The notes under the pieces: generated by a model
Seen by the model: only the letters and a program-made list of their open reading frames with translations
The model's database searches: none
Told to the model about the DNA's origin: nothing
Translations under genes and position numbers: made by a program
Part shown: positions 110 through 37,909 of the stretch, piece after piece
How the letters are laid out: each line of letters begins with the position of its first letter
How positions within the stretch are numbered: the stretch's first letter is position 1
From: a virus
IMG/VR virus record: IMGVR_UViG_3300025645_000142
Span: 1-43,564 of that record
Length of the DNA stretch: 43,564 nt
Direction: 5' to 3' (one strand)

Positions 110-367
110 ATGAGCAATGATAATGTATCCAATGCCATATGTAAAGCTAATGAATGGGAATTGGCTATTAAGCACAAAAACGCTTTAGAAAAAGAGGATT
201 TTGAAACTTGTTTAGATATCAAACGAGAAATTGATAATCGGATTGATAACGGAACTATAAATCATAGTTTAATGAGCGGATTTATGTACTGGAATCCTAA
301 ATCTAAAAAGTTTGAAGGAGAGCCTAATTATGACAACCTAAACGGCTTGTTTGATAATTACTGCTAA
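110..367 (+). CDS. small protein with UVR-like helical segment
   Basis: 85-residue soluble protein of unknown function. Residues about 18-44 (ALEKEDFETCLDIKREI) look like the UVR-type helical hairpin found in UvrB/UvrC and in many small phage proteins, but the similarity is short and no nuclease domain is present. The stop codon TAA is itself part of the TAAC core of the inverted repeat at 363-416. Integron cassettes often show this kind of gene-attC overlap. The gene appears to be a self-contained cassette between the half-site at 48-75 and that repeat. The start ATG has an A-rich leader and no clear Shine-Dalgarno, as usual in Bacteroidota. Confidence 0.7.
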   Translation: MSNDNVSNAICKANEWELAIKHKNALEKEDFETCLDIKREIDNRIDNGTINHSLMSGFMYWNPKSKKFEGEPNYDNLNGLFDNYC

Positions 368-416
368 CACTTCGCTTGCCGCCTGTACTTGTATGGCGGA
401 TAAGCGGATGTTATGA
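363..416 (+). repeat. attC-like imperfect inverted repeat (54 nt)
   Basis: Left arm GCTAACACTTCGCTTGCCGCC (split here as GCTAAC, then ACTTCGC, then TTGCCGCC) pairs with right arm GGCGGATAAGCGGATGTTATGA. The outer TAACA pairs with TGTTA, and the left arm carries one or two extra bases after TAAC. The loop is TGTACTTGTAT. It begins inside the stop codon of the 85-aa gene. It has the same design as the repeats at 36468, 37256 and 34641. Whether an integrase can recombine it is not shown. Confidence 0.6.
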
Positions 417-29081: not shown

Positions 29082-31289
29082 TTAAAATAGTTCTAATTGA
29101 TTTAATTTACTTTCAGCATTTTTTAAGTTTTTTACTGATAGTTCGAAATAGCTTTCTTTTAACTCAACACCTAAATACCTTCTATTATTTTCTACTGAAA
29201 CGTACCCTTCAGTGCCTATTCCATTAAAAGGGCTAAATACAAGGTCATTTGGATTTGTATATAATTCTAATAACCTTTTAATTGGTTCTTTTTGAGTTGG
29301 TGTCATGTGCTTTTCATCTTGTTGTGCTTTTGCCTCACGTACGCTTAATACGTCTCCTGCATCAATCTCTCCTTCAAGCCATACGGGTTCAGCTATCTTA
29401 CACCAATATTCAAAAGGTATTCCGTTATTTTGGTGGTTTACTGGTTCTAAATTGTCTCCTAATTTTTTAAATGTTAATAGATAGTCAGGGAAACCCATTC
29501 TATTAATAGTTGAATCTCTTTTTGTTGTAGCGTGCAATAATTGCATATTTTTAGTTCTTTGTGCAATAATTTTTGGGTCTTTCCAAATTACTACTTCTGC
29601 ATGGAATAGCCATCCGTATTTTCTCATAGCAGTAATTAAATCACCTCTAAAATCAATTATTTCTAAAAATCCGTCCTTGCCTTTTGATGTAGATAACTGC
29701 GTACAGTGCATAGATAGTAAACGTCCCTCTTTTGTTATCCTTAATAATTCAGGTATCATATACTCAAAGTGTTTAAAGAAATCTTTATAGCTTGAGTTAT
29801 TGCTCAAATCACGTGAATCATTAGAGAACATATATAAATCTGAGAATGGTGGCGAGAAAAAAGTGTAGTCTATCGAGCTAGTTTTAATATGTTTTATATA
29901 TTCTACGCTATCACCGTTTATTAATTTCCAATTAGTTCCTGATTCTTCTGTAAATGACGTATTTATATCTTTATCATTTTTTTGAACCTCATTCATTGCT
30001 ATTTGCATTTGTTTTTGCATATTTTCGAATTTTGATTGTTTTTCTTTTATTGATTGTATTACATTGCCCATTGTTTCAACTATCACTAATATTATATTTA
30101 CTTTATTCTTTTGCCCAAATCTCCAACTACGTCTTATAGCTTGATATAATCCTTCAAAACTAAAGTCAAAAGATAAAAATATTTGATTGTTGCAATTTTG
30201 AAAGTTTAATCCAAATTGTGCTATTTTAGTTTTTGTTACTAAAACCCTAAAATCACCACTTGCAAAGCCTAGTAATTTACTTTCTTTTTGTTCATTCTTA
30301 TCTTTCCCACTTACTGATATTGCATCTGGGATTAAATCACATATTTCTTTTTGTTCATCATCTGTTTTAACCCAAATTATAAAAGTTTCATTTGAGTTAT
30401 TAACTATTTTGGCTACTTCAATACAACGCTCATTTTGAGTTACACGTAATTCAGAATAAAAGTCGGTAGCACTAACTGAAATATCATTAAACAATTTCCC
30501 GTTTTCTTTTTTATCTACCTCTATTTCTATCTCTTTTATATTTAACTCAGGCAAAATGTAACTATCGCCATTAAATCCAATATCAGAAGGGTTTAATAAC
30601 ATAATTGACCAACTACTCACCCAAGACCAGAAGTCTTTTGTAGCGTGTTTTTTTAGTCTCCATTTACTTATTGTGTGGTCTTTGTTAAAGGCATCATTTA
30701 TGAAAAAAATTGAAACCATTTCTTTTGACCTCATAACGTTTAGAAACTCGGCATGATTACCTAATTCAATGTGGTCATTTGGTGAAGGTGTGGCAGTACA
30801 AGCTAATTTAAAAGGAGTATCTTTAAATTTTCTAAGTATTAATTCTTTTGTAGCTCCATTGTAGTTTTTTAAACAGCTTGATTCATCTAAGACTATACAC
30901 CCAAAAATAGAAGCATCTATATTTGATAACTGGTCATAATTTGTTATATAAATACCGTACCTATCTTTATCTATGTTTTTATTATGTCTTTCAACATTAA
31001 TATTAAATTTTGCTCCTTCTTTTATTGTTTGTCCTGCTACAGCTAAAGGTGCAAGTATTAAGCTTGGCTTATTTGTTTTTTTTGAAGTTTGATGTGCAAA
31101 CTCTAATTGTTGAAAAGTTTTACCAAGCCCACAATCTTCGAATAATGCGTATCGACCTGCTTTTAGTGCTTTTTTTACACAGAACTTTTGAAAAGGAGCT
31201 AATAAATGGTTTAGTTCTGATTCTTCTATATCAAACCCTGATTCTATAAAAGTTTTTTGTTTAGTTTTTAAAAATTCTTCGTATGTCAT
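29082..31289 (-). CDS. SNF2-type helicase fused to beta-class DNA methyltransferase
   Basis: 735 aa. The helicase half has EDCGLGKT (51-58, Walker A), LDESS (134-138), TATPSP (165-170) and QAIRRSWRFGQ (383-393), the SNF2/superfamily 2 set. The methyltransferase half has FFSPPF (477-482, motif IV; SPP[YF] is typical of N4-cytosine enzymes such as PvuII), HMTPTQKEP (661-669, motif X) and FSPFNGIGTEG (685-695, motif I, cofactor site). The order IV then X/I is the beta class. It most likely modifies and remodels phage DNA to resist restriction, as P1 DarB does with the reverse domain order, but a replication role is possible. No cognate endonuclease is nearby. Confidence 0.88.
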   Translation of the reverse strand: MTYEEFLKTKQKTFIESGFDIEESELNHLLAPFQKFCVKKALKAGRYALFEDCGLGKTFQQLEFAHQTSKKTNKPSLILAPLAVAGQTIKEGAKFNINVERHNKNIDKDRYGIYITNYDQLSNIDASIFGCIVLDESSCLKNYNGATKELILRKFKDTPFKLACTATPSPNDHIELGNHAEFLNVMRSKEMVSIFFINDAFNKDHTISKWRLKKHATKDFWSWVSSWSIMLLNPSDIGFNGDSYILPELNIKEIEIEVDKKENGKLFNDISVSATDFYSELRVTQNERCIEVAKIVNNSNETFIIWVKTDDEQKEICDLIPDAISVSGKDKNEQKESKLLGFASGDFRVLVTKTKIAQFGLNFQNCNNQIFLSFDFSFEGLYQAIRRSWRFGQKNKVNIILVIVETMGNVIQSIKEKQSKFENMQKQMQIAMNEVQKNDKDINTSFTEESGTNWKLINGDSVEYIKHIKTSSIDYTFFSPPFSDLYMFSNDSRDLSNNSSYKDFFKHFEYMIPELLRITKEGRLLSMHCTQLSTSKGKDGFLEIIDFRGDLITAMRKYGWLFHAEVVIWKDPKIIAQRTKNMQLLHATTKRDSTINRMGFPDYLLTFKKLGDNLEPVNHQNNGIPFEYWCKIAEPVWLEGEIDAGDVLSVREAKAQQDEKHMTPTQKEPIKRLLELYTNPNDLVFSPFNGIGTEGYVSVENNRRYLGVELKESYFELSVKNLKNAESKLNQLELF

Positions 31290-34104: not shown

Positions 34105-34126
34105 GTTTCGTTTATATATATGTTAG
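34105..34126 (-). repeat. recurrent motif CTAACATATATATAAACGAAAC
   Basis: Minus-strand copy of the motif, matching the plus-strand copy at 37616-37637 over the full 22 bases. A short hairpin ACGGTC/GACCG just upstream (34127-34147) joins it to the stop of the previous gene. It lies about 13 bases before the next ATG. Confidence 0.6.
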
Positions 34127-34146
34127 CGGTCATGGCTACCGACCGT

Positions 34147-34599
34147 TTAAAATGGCAAATCCTCGTCCGTATGACCATCAGACAAAATATGTTCAACAAG
34201 TTTGCTCACTTCTAAATCTTCAAGTTTGTAATCCAATTCAAAACCAGTAGTTGAATAAAAGACATTTTGCAACTCATGATAGTATTGTATCTTTTTGCTA
34301 ATACTTGCATTTCGGCTGCAATACGACAATCCATTACCATCTGAATCAATTACGAATATTCCCCATTCACCAACCTGTTTTTGCAAAAAGGCATGGTCTC
34401 CATTATCTTCAACCCACCAGCCAAGTTTACCAAGAACAACCCAGTTAATAGGTATCGGCTTAAATATTTCATTGAAACCTTCTGGATTTTCGGATAGCCA
34501 TTTTAAATCCTGCCAATCAATTCTATTTGGAAGCAATCCATCTTCCGAAGATTGGTAGTAAATGACGTTGTCTATTCTTAAATCTGTTTCTTTTATCAT
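34147..34599 (-). CDS. Bacteroidota phage accessory protein with SSB-like acidic tail
   Basis: 150 aa. It resembles a widespread Bacteroidota mobile-element protein of unknown role: TDLRIDNVIYYQ at the start, a middle FKPIPINWVVLGKLGWW, then KIQYYHELQNVFYSTTGFEL. It ends DEDLPF, matching the DDDI/LPF tip with which SSB recruits partners. It is preceded by the attC-like repeat at 34641-34734 and followed by another intergenic element, so it is probably a mobile cassette gene. A link to DNA processing is inferred from the tail only. Confidence 0.7.
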   Translation of the reverse strand: MIKETDLRIDNVIYYQSSEDGLLPNRIDWQDLKWLSENPEGFNEIFKPIPINWVVLGKLGWWVEDNGDHAFLQKQVGEWGIFVIDSDGNGLSYCSRNASISKKIQYYHELQNVFYSTTGFELDYKLEDLEVSKLVEHILSDGHTDEDLPF

Positions 34600-34640
34600 T
34601 TTTTTTTAAATTTTAGTTCTTACTAATTACCCGCCACGAA

Positions 34641-34734
34641 CCGCTAACATGGTATTGCAAAAAGCGACAGGACACATACTGCGGAATCGGGACTTACTAC
34701 TTTGCCGCCTTCGGCAATACCATAACCGTTATAA
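34641..34734 (-). repeat. attC-like imperfect inverted repeat (94 nt)
   Basis: On the minus strand the left arm is TTATAACGGTTATGGTATTG and the right arm is CAATACCATGTTAGCGG. The 10-base core ATGGTATTGC pairs exactly and the pairing extends into a partly matched GC-rich part (AAGGCGGCA with AAAGCGACA). The left arm has three extra bases between TAAC and the stem, as do the other copies. It starts 6 bases after the stop codon of the 56-aa gene at 34740. Confidence 0.65.
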
Positions 34735-34739
34735 AACAT

Positions 34740-34910
34740 TTAAGAGTTGTGCGGTTGGTTACGCCAAATCCATTCAATCTCATTGCCTGTTAATGTGTTG
34801 CAATCTCTACCTTCTACTGAAAATTTTGTTTGTTTTGCAAGTTCAGTTCTTTCCTGAATGGGTTTTCTGTTCCACCATCTTATTGCTAATTCTCTATCTG
34901 TAAGTTCCAT
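34740..34910 (-). CDS. 56-aa cassette-like protein
   Basis: Reads MELTDRELAIRWWNRKPIQE, then a middle with FSVEGRDCNTLTGNEIEWIW and a short polar end. It is soluble with three tryptophans in a compact set. This composition is normal for a real protein and the frame is followed at once by the attC-like repeat at 34641-34734. It is the first gene of the minus-strand region, divergent from the early genes. No family recognised. An 84-residue plus-strand frame over the same DNA is less likely. Confidence 0.6.
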   Translation of the reverse strand: MELTDRELAIRWWNRKPIQERTELAKQTKFSVEGRDCNTLTGNEIEWIWRNQPHNS

Positions 34911-35104
34911 AATAAAAACGTTTTATAAAAATATGTATATGTAATATAGTCAATTAACTAAGTATATAATTTGAAAAGTATGTGCAAGGCTGTACTACAC
35001 ATAAATTCAACGTTATCCTACTTTCTTAACACCTCAAAATTAATACTTAAATTTTAAAAAACAAAATAATTTTTAAAATAATAGTTTTTTAAATCAAAAC
35101 GTTT

Positions 35105-35112
35105 TATATTTG
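35105..35112 (+). promoter_or_regulatory. early promoter (TATATTTG) in the divergent intergenic region
   Basis: The 222-base gap 34911-35132 separates divergent operons and holds no gene. TATATTTGCATAA, preceded by TTTTTAAATCAAAAC, sits 21 bases before the ATG at 35133. The same two blocks recur at 42270-42306. A GGATAACGTTGAATTTATG stretch on the minus strand (about 35006-35024) resembles an attC-like left arm. No clear minus-strand -7 box was identified. Confidence 0.7.
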
Positions 35113-35132
35113 CATAAACAAATAACAATAAT

Positions 35133-35351
35133 ATGACAGAAGACAAAAAAGAGTTCTACGACAGATTTAGTAACTACCTTAAAAAAAGAGGTATTAGTAA
35201 AAAGGTATTTACTAAAGAAATGGGTTTGAATTATATTTATTTTACACAAAGGATAAAGTATAAAGATATGCCAAATAGTTTAAGACAAACAGTAACACTT
35301 AAAATTGATTTAGATGAATGCCGAGGAATTAAAAAAACCAAAAAGCCATAA
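35133..35351 (+). CDS. small HTH-like early protein
   Basis: 72 aa. Residues about 14-45 (YLKKRGISKKVFTKEMGLN, then YIYFTQRIK) have the helix-turn-helix rhythm of Cro/XRE proteins, though short of a full repressor. It is the first gene after the early promoter, the normal place for an early regulator. It overlaps the next gene by 38 bases, in another frame. Confidence 0.6.
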   Translation: MTEDKKEFYDRFSNYLKKRGISKKVFTKEMGLNYIYFTQRIKYKDMPNSLRQTVTLKIDLDECRGIKKTKKP

Positions 35352-35586
35352 GGCGGAAGTGTTATATCACTTATTAGTTCATAAACAAGTCAGTTGCAAA
35401 GACTTTCCTTGGATGTCTGGGTTTAGAACTCGGATAAGTGATTTAAAGTTAGAAAACAGCTTACCTATTGATACAAAAATGCATCATGGGATAAGTAAGT
35501 ACAAAAACGTATATAAGTACGCCGTGCATAAGCTAAAATGCGATTTAGAACAAGCAATTAAAATTTACAATAGAATTAATGGATAG
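35314..35586 (+). CDS. winged-helix-like early protein
   Basis: 90 aa. The pattern SHKAEVLYHLL, VSCKDFPWMSGFRTRISDL is the winged-helix form seen in small phage proteins that bind DNA. The remaining end is basic/helical (KYAVHKLKCDLEQAIKIY). It overlaps both neighbours and is probably translated by coupling. A regulator of early genes or a recombination accessory are possible. Confidence 0.65.
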   Translation: MNAEELKKPKSHKAEVLYHLLVHKQVSCKDFPWMSGFRTRISDLKLENSLPIDTKMHHGISKYKNVYKYAVHKLKCDLEQAIKIYNRING

Positions 35587-35905
35587 AGACGTTTTATACA
35601 TAAGAGAAGCAAGGTTGATAACAATAGCTTGCTGTTGCATGATATTGGCAGACAATACAGATGAATATTTAACTGCGGAAAATTCAGAAATTAAAAGATT
35701 GGCATCTGAATTGAATGTGCATTTAATGAAGGTATTAGACATTGAATACAATAGAGATTCGGTAGCTGATGAATTGGTGGAGATAAGTAAGAATGTGGAG
35801 AAGTACATGATAGTTCAACAAAAATTACGAGTGCTTAGACAATCAACACAGGCAGAATTTTACGACAAGTTTATGTATTTACTAAAAAAATTTAAACTAC
35901 TATAA
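35579..35905 (+). CDS. hypothetical helical early protein
   Basis: 108 aa, mostly helical with three consecutive cysteines near residue 18 (ACCCM). Not recognised. It overlaps the previous gene by 8 bases and the next by one (TAATG), so it sits in a tight operon. Confidence 0.6.
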   Translation: MDRDVLYIREARLITIACCCMILADNTDEYLTAENSEIKRLASELNVHLMKVLDIEYNRDSVADELVEISKNVEKYMIVQQKLRVLRQSTQAEFYDKFMYLLKKFKLL

Positions 35906-36114
35906 TGAACATTAAACACAAGCAGACATCAGACTTAATACATGAGTTTGATGTCGAATTTGAAGGGATAGAGATTAAAGGTATCTTTAGAGTTTATGAG
36001 AAAAAAATCTATAAGTACGACTTGCAACTTTTAGAAGATTTAGATTTTGAAAGTTATTTCAGCGTAAAGGAGATGTGCGTAGACCTTTTAAAAGCAATGA
36101 ATATAATAGAATGA
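35905..36114 (+). CDS. hypothetical 69-aa early protein
   Basis: Beta hairpin at the start (DLIHEFDVEFEGIEIKGIF, then RVYEKKIYKYDLQLL), helix at the end. Not recognised. It overlaps the previous gene by one base and the next gene by 4 (ATGA at 36111). Confidence 0.6.
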   Translation: MNIKHKQTSDLIHEFDVEFEGIEIKGIFRVYEKKIYKYDLQLLEDLDFESYFSVKEMCVDLLKAMNIIE

Positions 36115-36425
36115 AACTACACGAAAACTTAATAGCCGCTTGCTCCGCTTATGTATCGGAGTTTGCAAAAATGTACGAATGGGAAAACGAAAACGAGCAA
36201 AGAGAACCTAATGGAATATATCATTTTGCTGATATGACATTTAGTTTTAATGATATTGTTTATTGTGTGAATAATAACGTACCCAAAGGTATTTTAATTT
36301 CTTGGTATGATGAGAATTTCAGAAATTTTATTCTAGGGAAAGTTAGTATAAGTCTAAAAAACTATGTACTTTACTTTAAAGGAGAAGTGAATAAATCAAT
36401 ATGCATAAAATGCGGAAGTTCTTAG
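36111..36425 (+). CDS. hypothetical 104-aa early protein
   Basis: Start chosen at ATG 36111 (MKLHENLIAACSAYV), which overlaps the previous stop as ATGA; a frame open from GTG 36075 is less likely. The sequence YHFADMTFSFNDIVYCVNNNVPKG and the end SICIKCGSS are seen. Not recognised. It is followed by 42 bases and then the attC-like repeat at 36468. Confidence 0.6.
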   Translation: MKLHENLIAACSAYVSEFAKMYEWENENEQREPNGIYHFADMTFSFNDIVYCVNNNVPKGILISWYDENFRNFILGKVSISLKNYVLYFKGEVNKSICIKCGSS

Positions 36426-36467
36426 CATGGCTTTTATAGAAGACAAATTAAATAAATAGCATTTTTT

Positions 36468-36599
36468 GCTAACGTTTTGGGCTTTGCGTTCGTTGGGAAT
36501 TTCCAGCACTAAAGCCAATAGTAGTAACAATTTAAAAATTAAGTACAATGTTTAATCGAAGCACATCAGCCCCCAATGACGCAAAACCCGTGTTATCGG
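36468..36599 (+). repeat. attC-like inverted repeat with long loop (132 nt)
   Basis: Left arm GCTAACGTTTTGGGCTTTGC then GTTCGTTGGG pairs with right arm CCCCCAATGACGCAAAACCC then GTGTTATCGG. Outer TAAC pairs with GTTA, the left arm has two or three extra bases before GGG, and one more in the middle. The loop is about 72 bases. The 79-aa gene's first ATG is in the loop, so its first ~15 codons lie inside the element. Total length is within the known attC range. Confidence 0.6.
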
Positions 36600-36787
36600 A
36601 AGGGCTTCGTTACTGGGTTCAAATTCAGTTCAAAGGTCAATATGGGATTATACGAACTTGGGATATTACGGAGGAAGTAAAAACGCTGAAAGAAGCACAA
36701 AGCTATAAGTCAATGATTGATAGTAGTGTGAGTAAAGCTCGGATTGTTGATACAGTTACAATGAAAGTTGTCGAACATTGGGTTTAG
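36548..36787 (+). CDS. 79-aa cassette-like protein
   Basis: The frame opens at ATG 36548 inside the inverted repeat, but the body (residues ~18-79: RYWVQIQFKGQYGIIRTWDI, then EEVKTLKEAQSYKSMIDSS) begins beyond it. An in-frame GTG at 36590 (VLSEGLRY), at the end of the right arm, is an alternative start. It is a small alpha/beta protein, not recognised. It ends just before another copy of the AT-rich motif at 36797. Confidence 0.55.
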   Translation: MFNRSTSAPNDAKPVLSEGLRYWVQIQFKGQYGIIRTWDITEEVKTLKEAQSYKSMIDSSVSKARIVDTVTMKVVEHWV

Positions 36788-36796
36788 CCTTTCCGC

Positions 36797-36815
36797 CAAC
36801 ATACATATAAACGAA
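36797..36815 (+). repeat. recurrent motif CAACATACATATAAACGAA
   Basis: Third copy of the TAACATANATATAAACGAA family, 10 bases after the stop of the 79-aa gene and 24 bases before the next ATG at 36839. Orientation is the same as the downstream gene, as in the other copies. Confidence 0.55.
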
Positions 36816-36838
36816 TAATAATATGAAATCGTAAAATT

Positions 36839-37141
36839 ATGATAGAAGAATTAAAGTTTTATTTTAAAAATACGCCAAGAGAACAGATTTTAGCGGATTG
36901 GTATAAAAGCCAAGAATGCGATAATGTTGGCCCAACTGTTGAGTACTTTATAAAAGACAATAGTTTGAGATTTGAACTAGCTGAGTTATACGGATACATT
37001 ATGGGAGCTTTAGAAACAGAAAAAGATTACTTAGTAAAATATAGGTTGCAAGACAAACTAAAAGCAATAGATACTCTTTTATCTCAACTACCATACAACA
37101 CTAAAAACCCGATTGACACATATAAGCAAGCAATAAAATGA
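36839..37141 (+). CDS. hypothetical 100-aa helical protein
   Basis: Reads MIEELKFYFKNTPREQILADW, then a mostly helical body with ELAELYGYIMGALETEKD. Similar small proteins with 'L-NT-PREQILADW' starts are common on Bacteroidota mobile elements, role unknown. The 222 bases after it (37142-37363) hold one copy of a direct repeat and an attC-like element but no gene. Confidence 0.65.
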   Translation: MIEELKFYFKNTPREQILADWYKSQECDNVGPTVEYFIKDNSLRFELAELYGYIMGALETEKDYLVKYRLQDKLKAIDTLLSQLPYNTKNPIDTYKQAIK

Positions 37142-37228
37142 AGAGTAAATCATTTAACAATAAGCGATTAACAATAATATATTAAAAACGGTGCAATGGG
37201 ATAAAAATAAATTCAAGCCAAGTAAGAT

Positions 37229-37251
37229 ATCTAATGTAAAATGGTAGTATT
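37229..37251 (+). repeat. 23-bp direct repeat, left copy
   Basis: Identical to 37673-37695 over all 23 bases (begins ATCTAATGTAAAATGG, ends TAGTATT). The two copies flank the segment holding the attC-like repeat and the 79-aa DUF551-like gene, so the segment looks like a 444-bp insertion or duplication unit. Confidence 0.85.
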
Positions 37252-37255
37252 TTTT

Positions 37256-37349
37256 ACTAACGAGATTCGGCTATGTGTTCGGGCGGCTATCCTGAACAAT
37301 CAAATTAACTACAAATGTTTAACCGCCTGACATATAGCCGATGTTAGGC
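37256..37349 (+). repeat. attC-like imperfect inverted repeat (94 nt)
   Basis: Left arm ACTAACGAGATTCGGCTATG then TGTTCGGGCGGCT pairs with right arm AACCGCCTGACATATAGCCG then ATGTTAGGC. The stem CGGCTATRTG is 10 of 10 with wobble, the outer CTAAC/GTTAG pair is exact, and the left arm carries three extra bases after TAAC. The right end GTTAGGC fits the attC core GTTRRRY. The loop is about 32 bases. Confidence 0.7.
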
Positions 37350-37363
37350 ATCATGTAAAAATT

Positions 37364-37603
37364 ATGGATTGGATTAACGTAAATGACAAATTACCAGAGG
37401 ACTTTGAAGAATTAATAATCAAGCCCACTGATGAATTAGACCCTTTCAAAACAAAGAGAGTATTGGCTCTTACTGATACTGGCTCAATAACTGACAATAT
37501 ACGGTTAAAGATGCAAGTTGGTAATAAGGAATGGAATTGGTTTATGGGATATGAAGGTGAAGAAGTTATTAAGTGGGCGGTGTTTGAAGAACCTACGGAA
37601 TAA
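37364..37603 (+). CDS. DUF551-like small protein
   Basis: 79 aa. The pattern MDWINVNDKLPED ... VLALTDTGSI ... WFMGYEGEEVIKWAVFEEPTE matches the DUF551 family ('W-sV-drLPe ... W ... VthWmpLPepP') found in phages and prophages. Biochemical role unknown. It lies alone between the attC-like repeat at 37256 and the motif at 37616, inside the 23-bp direct repeats. Confidence 0.75.
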   Translation: MDWINVNDKLPEDFEELIIKPTDELDPFKTKRVLALTDTGSITDNIRLKMQVGNKEWNWFMGYEGEEVIKWAVFEEPTE

Positions 37604-37615
37604 TTTTTATTGTGC

Positions 37616-37637
37616 CTAACATATATATAAACGAAAC
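37616..37637 (+). repeat. recurrent motif CTAACATATATATAAACGAAAC
   Basis: Fourth copy, identical to the minus-strand copy at 34105-34126. It starts 12 bases after the stop of the DUF551-like gene, and 36 bases before the right copy of the 23-bp repeat. Confidence 0.6.
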
Positions 37638-37672: not shown

Positions 37673-37695
37673 ATCTAATGTAAAATGGTAGTATT
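37673..37695 (+). repeat. 23-bp direct repeat, right copy
   Basis: Exact copy of 37229-37251. It ends 13 bases before the next ATG at 37709, so it may also be part of that gene's leader. Confidence 0.85.
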
Positions 37696-37708
37696 AAAAT
37701 AGAATAAA

Positions 37709-37909
37709 ATGAAAGATTTAATAAGCAAAGATATTTCACGCTGTAATGATACAGATTGTTTAATTAATCGCTTTTGTAGGCGGTTTAAACAGTTGGAAAT
37801 AGACAAAGAAAACGGAAACGATAGAGTGCCTATAACAAACTTTAATTGGGCTACACAACAGGATGGGTGTAGTTTCTTTATAGACCTTTTTAAAATAAAA
37901 ATAAAATGA
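37709..37909 (+). CDS. 66-aa cysteine-containing early protein
   Basis: Cysteines at about 12, 17, 23 and 54 in SRCNDTDCLINRFCRRF and DGCSF suggest a metal site. Similar small phage proteins with 'C-xxx-C-h-xx-C-R-R/F' are common, without known function. The stop overlaps the next ATG as ATGA. Confidence 0.65.
   Translation: MKDLISKDISRCNDTDCLINRFCRRFKQLEIDKENGNDRVPITNFNWATQQDGCSFFIDLFKIKIK

Follow-up and report, generated by a model that had tools for sequence, protein, structure and literature searches.

The window analysed here is the whole 43,564-nucleotide stretch of IMG/VR virus record IMGVR_UViG_3300025645_000142 (43.6 kb), which has genes for terminase, portal and tape measure proteins and may be a fragment. 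It contains four hairpins bounded by TAAC and GTTA, which a sequence-only reading had described as sites resembling the attC sites of integron gene cassettes; all four were found, each within a few bases of where that reading had placed it. Three of them open candidate cassette units. The first unit lies on the minus strand (34122..34731) and consists of hairpin E2 at its 5′ end (34645..34731), a gene for 150 amino acids without a Pfam match (34147..34599) and the end ACCGCTAAC. An attI-like right half, AACATATATATAAACGAA, lies at the unit end (34107..34124, minus strand); it is an exact copy of a motif similar to the attI-like sites of phage integrase loci. The second unit (36470..36800, plus strand) comprises hairpin E3 (36470..36595), an open reading frame (ORF) without a Pfam match (36548..36787), the true start of which is uncertain, and a copy of the motif, AACATACATATAAACGAA, at its end (36798..36815). 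The third (37258..37620, plus strand) comprises hairpin E4 (37258..37346), a gene for 79 amino acids resembling DUF551 (37364..37603; E value 0.0055, below the curated cut-off) and a further motif copy, AACATATATATAAACGAA (37618..37635). The candidate sites E2 and E3 are 1.7 kb apart and E3 and E4 0.7 kb apart. In the E3 ORF the first ATG (36548) falls within the hairpin loop (MFNRST...); many relatives have this same loop ATG, which is either an annotation trap or a real start.

Folding of single strands was compared with dinucleotide shuffles. The segments at 355-424 (z -3.9 and -4.5 for the two strands) and 37248-37357 (z -4.3 and -2.4) folded clearly better than their shuffles, and 34633-34742 showed a weak excess (z -2.1 and -1.4). 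The folding check thus spoke for two of the four hairpins clearly and for one weakly, and not for the longest, E3. A crude TAAC/GTTA detector found three elements in the window against a shuffle mean of 1.8, without clear excess; with stems weighted for G-C pairs it found three against a mean of 0.08 and a maximum of one in 40 shuffles. A scan of the window with Rfam at gathering thresholds gave no match. Taken alone the hairpins are thin evidence, and the question is settled by homology.

The longer loop sequence of the E3 element, AATGTTTAATCGAAGCAC, is present in at least 60 stretches of viral contigs, most of which by eye fall inside or beside TAAC...GTTA hairpins of several stem classes. 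A loop pattern, TTAANTACAAATGTTTAA, was also used as bait in genome contigs and was rejected, the matches being mostly chance ones by eye. In 508 kb of chosen loci the detector found 127 elements, about eleven per window length, versus 0.08 in the window shuffles. From other phage contigs, excluding the window and its near relative L007, 65 elements were aligned (A1) and a covariance model, R1, was built from them. Fifteen of the 21 predicted pairs in A1 have sequences changed on both sides. R1 recovered three window elements: E3 (88 bits, E value 6e-17), E4 (51 bits, 1e-8) and E2 on the minus strand (39 bits, 4e-6). The training contigs had been fetched with the E3 loop as bait and the E3 score is therefore partly expected; E2 and E4 were never bait. 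L007 carries the same three hairpins. The short element E1 (365..413, plus strand), which the sequence-only reading had counted as a fourth family member at 363-416, has a similar layout and folds better than shuffles, and its R1 score is background (12.4 bits, E value 2.9), so that its membership is not supported.

For cassettes, complementarity is expected between the two ends of one unit and not between the two flanks of one hairpin. The six bases after GTTA or GTTR of one hairpin were therefore compared with the six before the next TAAC or YAAC and called complementary when at least five paired. Such complementarity was found in 43 of 61 segments of phage contigs, versus 5 of 119 for the two flanks of one hairpin. 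For hairpins defined by R1 the counts were 155 of 181 versus 18 of 208 in a mostly bacterial set, and 89 of 110 versus 5 of 134 in phage integrase loci, for which 134 of 141 sites were taken (the seven excluded being two of L211, downstream of the integrase, two of L212 and one each of L206, L208 and L227). Several contigs are near-copies of each other, and the unit counts are not all independent. Shuffled pairing of unit ends gave a mean of 2.0-2.4 of 6. At the seventh position after GTTR the match rate is only 2 and 3 percent, against 66 to 93 percent at the neighbouring positions; the extended arm therefore contains a conserved mismatch, mostly G opposite T in the printed examples. In the window, ends of the E2 unit are complementary at 9 of 10 positions, equalled by 3 of the 759 YAAC-ending 10-mers of the window, against 4 of 10 for the flanks of the hairpin itself. 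The E4 unit has 8 of 10 (equalled by 8 of 759; own flanks 6 of 10) and the E3 unit 8 of 10 (equalled by 22 of 759) and 11 of 14. All three units end in YAAC followed by one common attI-like motif. Exact copies of its shared part, AACATAYATATAAACGAA, which resembles phage attI halves, occur in the window at the three unit ends only, and at up to three mismatches there are five matches where 0.5 is expected.

Comparison of bacterial arrays indicated which hairpin belongs to which gene. Among 57 pairs of homologous segments, most of them from one 438-base gene and in all from about eight gene families, the preceding hairpin (in hairpin orientation) was conserved in 56 and the following one in 2, and the crossover is therefore placed on the YAAC side. 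Bacterial genes mostly lie opposite to the strand of the R1 hairpin (143 opposite, 12 same and 25 unclear in one set, where 10 of the 12 same-strand cases come from phage record locus L179 and from L169; 54, 0 and 8 in a second). Phage genes lie on the same strand (54 same, 0 opposite and 2 unclear; 94, 5 and 10 in a second set). Read along the gene, bacterial arrays thus have each gene before its own site, which is also the integron order; phages, the window included, have the hairpin before its gene, and the unit is hairpin plus downstream gene. The idea that a gene follows its own hairpin everywhere was rejected, bacterial genes being on the opposite strand; the phages have the inverted layout. 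It had been claimed that the TAAC side faces the 3′ end of the adjacent gene, and this holds for the preceding gene, yet the gene that moves together with the hairpin is the one on its other side. Exchange had likewise been predicted at the GTT on the right, whereas the breaks fall after YAAC on the left. In a test of where homology between contigs ends, 11 of 207 ends lay no more than 5 bases from a crossover predicted on the GTTA side, versus 1 of 207 control points; near-identical contigs blurred this test, in which no block had both ends at predicted crossovers. Several homology blocks in a hand listing start at TAAC.

Arrays were also found beside recombinase genes with a possible entry site. 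We surveyed 22 of the 24 viral loci that have sites and an integrase without the IntI-specific domain (L198 and L222 being excluded). Past the last hairpin, the best YAAC end differs from the unit start by no more than one mismatch in 21 of these 22 loci (by two in L221), and in most of them it precedes TA[CT]TATAT[AG]TA or a similar sequence; in 18 loci it lies 25 to 92 bases ahead of the integrase match. TATAT occurs at positions 3-10 in 18 of 22 of these attI-like halves, against 40 of 2958 YAAC sites of the same loci. The bacterial attI-like halves are looser, with TATA in 12 of 20. Phage loci can thus hold array, attI-like site and integrase together.

That this site receives new cassettes is seen in isolates of the Polaribacter phage Freya. 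Freya and another Polaribacter phage, Danklef, carry the system or its units, and the isolates of each differ by whole units. Six of ten Freya isolates were compared whole and one partly (_3, _4 and _7, with lengths equal to _2 and _6, were excluded), the base comparison covering the stretch between gp64 and the integrase; outside it the gene lists resemble each other. Freya_1 has TTGTTTACAAC, then ACCCCTATAAC and the integrase. At that point the other isolates contain 842 (_2), 1744 (_5), 2216 (_6), 4040 (_8) and 4942 (_10) extra bases. All 15 pairs of the six isolates diverge directly after YAAC, at three distinct places. The Freya_2 array opens those of _5, _6, _8 and _10, and the Freya_5 array those of _6 and _10; such nesting indicates that units were added beside the integrase. 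Freya_10 has one 307-base unit (hairpin and gene) at the attI-like site that Freya_9 does not have, and Freya_8 is without a 902-base unit present in Freya_10. In Danklef_1 and _5 a 781-base unit with an adenine DNA methylase gene, absent from _2, _3 and _4, sits between YAAC and YAAC about 4 kb from an integrase remnant. This Danklef integrase (L306, L313-L316) is annotated with 43 codons, matches over the later part only and looks shortened; the isolates still differ by a cassette. The gain or loss of genes in related phages, which the sequence-only reading had proposed as a check, was therefore found as base-exact differences of whole units, with breaks after YAAC and not at GTTRRRY. R1 gave three matches at E values up to 1 in 12 Freya stretches, two of these being one Freya_10 stretch counted twice. 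As R1 hardly sees the Freya hairpins, the family must be wider than the model. The paper on these phages states that they encode an integrase and are possibly temperate (PMC8776804; Bartlau et al. 2021); the word "integron" does not occur in its main text.

The recombinases themselves were analysed in bacteria and phages. R1 matches were obtained at an E value of 0.01 in 14 of 17 genomes reached through earlier loci. For the best integron-integrase-like genes there, the TIGR02249 match is mostly split in two (about 4-179 and 238-315); several of these genes adjoin arrays. The TIGR02249 cut-off was exceeded by none in 39 genomes or records; the family also matches in 13 of 14 control genomes and so alone proves nothing. 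The array-type integrases show an alignment gap against residues 180-246 of the solved Vibrio IntI. A profile of nine array-type proteins (A2) gave 57 strong matches and many weaker, Xer-type ones in 60 Flavobacteriaceae genomes. When the 57 strong and 61 weak matches were compared with the 150 best R1 sites, a listed site lay within 20 kb of 18 of the strong integrases, in 15 of the 18 on the 3′ side and on the opposite strand, and of none of the 61 Xer-type matches. Sites at an E value of 0.1 were present in 16 of 18 integrase neighbourhoods, 13 of which had been chosen for a known nearby site; three of the other five also had sites. Among the best 80 A2 relatives in viral contigs, 25 loci have sites, 141 in total, which share the strand of the integrase and, except for two in L211, lie upstream of it. 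A terminase match (PHROG 2) was found in 10 of 23 viral records with integrase and sites, and at least these are therefore phages.

In several respects this organisation is that of integrons and sedentary chromosomal integrons: single-gene arrays split by hairpins of conserved structure and variable sequence, up to tens of sites, complementary cassette ends, an attI-like site beside a tyrosine recombinase, and addition at the attI end in Freya. In others it differs. The integrase is without the IntI-specific insert; the right side reads GTTR and not GTTRRRY; the bulge beside the outer pairs has about 5 bases versus 1-2 in integrons; transcription of the integrase runs toward the array in most of the bacterial cases; and the phage genes are on the other strand relative to the hairpin. 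GTTR was present on the right side of 132 of 134 hairpins in phage integrase loci and 206 of 208 in the mostly bacterial set. The consensus GTTRRRY/RYYYAAC of integron core sites was not found as a rule, and the "GTTRRRY-like" side ascribed to the window elements fits one of their four right sides. The elements would thus work like attC sites, and by the integrase domain and the core-site consensus they do not belong to a standard integron; on these two grounds we do not class them as integron members.

The best surviving alternative, that these are ordinary integron cassettes in a CALIN (cluster of attC sites lacking integron-integrases) moved by a standard IntI with its specific domain, we regard as unlikely. 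A CALIN takes at least two attC sites within 3 kb and no integrase, and the spacing of E2, E3 and E4 would fit this if they were standard attC and the record were complete. Integrons in phages, including one Bacteroidota phage, are already known: in Polaribacter phage P12002L attC sites have been reported, and of two that were tested IntI1 used one (Qi et al. 2023, PMC9892861). Our detector and R1 both find elements in P12002L (best E value 4e-5, others weaker), which may or may not be the sites tested with IntI1; the sections of that paper on the tested sites give no coordinates. Like the window, P12002L has R1-family elements, with methylase genes nearby and no integrase among its annotated features. 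The sections of the paper that bear on it describe integron attC sites of a single Bacteroidota phage, without the wider family, its integrases, attI or exchange between isolates. A second point in favour of standard cassettes is the locus L227 (633-1943). Upstream of its patch-bearing IntI, that is, one with the IntI-specific domain, and on the strand of that gene, R1 gives four weak sites (28.5 to 16.2 bits); the locus is a possible link between the two kinds of integrase. Against this alternative, the spacing from KGxKxR to HxxRH is 53-59 residues in 44 of 47 array recombinases and 94-109 in patch-bearing IntI. In the viral subset 23 of 25 integrases have 53-58 residues, L227 has 94 and L211 gave no usable measure, as was also the case for L287 in the full set. 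L227 was thus the exception among the measured array recombinases, which otherwise were without the additional domain. A quick tree with several open forks, which omits 20 viral sequences, mostly patch-bearing IntI, put 21 array integrases of phages, together with nine relatives that have no listed site, in one branch (support 99), apart from patch-bearing IntI including L227 (99) and from flavobacterial Xer (97); L179, L184, L211 and L222 fell outside the main phage branch. XerA, XerC, XerD and NF040815 ("site-specific tyrosine recombinase/integron integrase") belong to the same recombinase family; NCBIfam NF040815 was the best or second best model for six array-type integrases tested, above its cut-off in one. 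Finally, class 1 integron attC sites were not matched by R1 (best 9.4 bits).

Transposon-like elements with terminal inverted repeats and a transposase would also explain the unit termini, which in one Freya unit form an inverted repeat over 26 of 30 bases. This is very improbable: eight Pfam families were found in 107 phage cassette ORFs, none of them a transposase (the PHROG view covers 25 of 56 families), the breaks fall after YAAC, the arrays end beside a tyrosine recombinase, and the hairpin lies outside the inverted repeats. That the hairpins are immobile terminators or regulatory RNAs beside small genes agrees with their placement between such genes and with the clear folding of two of them, but is scarcely credible given that no T-run was seen by eye after E2, E3 or E4, that a terminator does not predict complementary ends across a gene, and that related systems gain and lose whole units at exact sites.

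We consider it highly probable, then, that the window phage holds three gene cassettes, each standing alone, and that they belong to an integron-like system native to the Bacteroidota and to phages of this phylum. This reading is reached by comparison, from the family, the termini, the neighbouring integrases, the attI-like sites and the whole-unit differences between isolates, and the same evidence strongly supports the earlier proposal that attC-like sites mark movable genes here, in a record without an integrase of its own, as part of a cassette system of Bacteroidota phages. Under it, a phage cassette would consist of a hairpin, a small gene and a terminus that can pair with the bases directly following GTTR, the hairpin having the layout YAAC, about 5 unpaired bases, a long imperfect stem, a variable loop, mostly one or two bases, and GTTR. 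In the excised circle the two termini would lie on either side of the hairpin and add about 10 pairs to its stem, with one conserved mismatch among them. The circle would be inserted at the YAAC of an attI-like site (YAAC plus an A+T-rich half such as TACTATATGTA), presumably as a folded single strand, by a tyrosine recombinase related to integron integrases and without the IntI-specific insert.

Precise gain and loss of cassettes was seen in Freya and Danklef; for the window we infer it from the termini and two matching empty sites. The rebuilt empty sites of E3 and E4 agree at 19 of 26 bases on the right and at 18 of 27 on the left (P 1.5e-4), where 12 of the 14 nearest bases are equal (P 5e-5). 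The two cassettes thus seem to occupy two copies of one target; the E2 empty site has the right half alone in common with them. Where a related phage lacks E3 or E4, the site is predicted to read TTTTTTRCTAACATAYATATAAACGAA without interruption. The sequence-only reading had noted no integron integrase in the window, and neither TIGR02249 nor A2 matched in the record. The integrase may therefore have acted in trans, have been lost or lie outside the record; the window cassettes were probably moved in trans, by an integrase of the host or of a co-infecting phage.

A number of results weigh against this reading. Hairpin E3 (36460-36607) folds no better than shuffles (z +0.5 and +0.3), and its own flanks pair at 7 of 10 positions, a small contrast to the 8 of 10 of its unit ends. 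The left empty flank of E2 does not match those of the other two (10 and 11 of 27 bases, mean 8.3). No relative without the window cassettes was found: a search with the attI-like motif for an empty window site gave, besides L007, just apparent coding sequence, and neither a 1 kb stretch of the cassette region nor the cassette head gave a BLAST match among named phages. The lack of a TIGR02249 or A2 match in the record, possibly a fragment, belongs here as well. The pairing in A1 is partly by construction, since the detector demanded a stem, and the best R1 score on Freya, the best evidence of exchange, is 33 bits (E value 3e-4). GTTRRRY is rare, being present on the right of 17 of 134 and 12 of 208 hairpins, and RYYYAAC fits 13 left sides in each set. 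Among the array-type integrases 39 of 57 have none of the 150 best sites within 20 kb, some lying at contig ends, and of 32 further weak matches three have a site within that distance (two with internal stops, one partial).

Some observations stand beside these results. A direct repeat, TCTAATGTAAAATGGTAGTATT, occurs at 37230-37251, before the E4 unit, and at about 37677-37698, before a gene at 37709; its copies bracket the E4 unit plus its attI-like half. At 50-100, ahead of a gene at 110, TAACGTTAAGGCTATGTTTCGTTGCC resembles the left half of a hairpin without the right half. Five Bacteroidales contigs (L017, L026, L027, L047, L048) contain another common hairpin family, about TAACTCGTTTATAA...TTATAAACGAGTTA, and an Empedobacter genome (L166, L180, L181; G009) a class of longer sites of 187-190 bases. 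A 735-amino-acid gene of the window (29082-31289, minus strand) matches PHROGs 16 (DNA helicase) and 67 (DNA methyltransferase) and apparently encodes a fused protein.

The family is widespread, in many phages as well as in bacteria. R1 matched at an E value of 1e-4 in 52 of 60 Flavobacteriaceae genomes and at 1e-5 in 57 of 118 Bacteroidota genomes. At 0.01 it matched in one of 18 control genomes, a Neisseriaceae metagenome bin, where all three hits share a single contig; the controls included a Prevotellaceae and an Ignavibacteriae genome, both without hits. The Neisseriaceae-bin contig (G247:C345), with its three strong sites, is perhaps a misplaced Bacteroidota or phage contig. The largest array (G090) has 74 sites over 76 kb, and a Chryseobacterium plasmid carries an integrase and six sites. 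In phages, 107 of 109 cassette ORFs were surveyed, with Pfam matches to N6/N4 (7), C5 (2) and Dam (1) methylases, counts that may overlap; this cargo hints at a role against restriction.

Among open PMC papers we found none that treats the system or the integrases that go with it, though one may exist among preprints or subscription papers. In their relevant sections, the IntegronFinder 2.0 paper gives a single complete integron for Bacteroidetes proper, that of Salinibacter (PMC9024848), reviews merely list Bacteroidota among integron-bearing phyla (PMC8618304, PMC9668308), and IntegronFinder is said to require the IntI-specific domain (PMC9668308). The system may have been overlooked because its recombinases lack the part sought by standard integron searches. 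We think it likely, with less assurance than for the window cassettes, that Bacteroidota and their phages have an integron lineage of their own, with recombinases without the IntI-specific domain, present in about half of the sampled genomes and mostly missed because searches demand that domain; that its complete phage module exchanges small counter-defence genes, DNA methylases for example, among phages that are otherwise alike; and that a "lysogeny integrase" of the Freya type is a cassette integrase. The system allows the direct question whether the IntI-specific domain is needed for recombining hairpin sites. If the proposal is true, a cassette-swapping engine would operate in much of a major phylum and its phages, and would show phages altering their gene content between isolates by cassette exchange.

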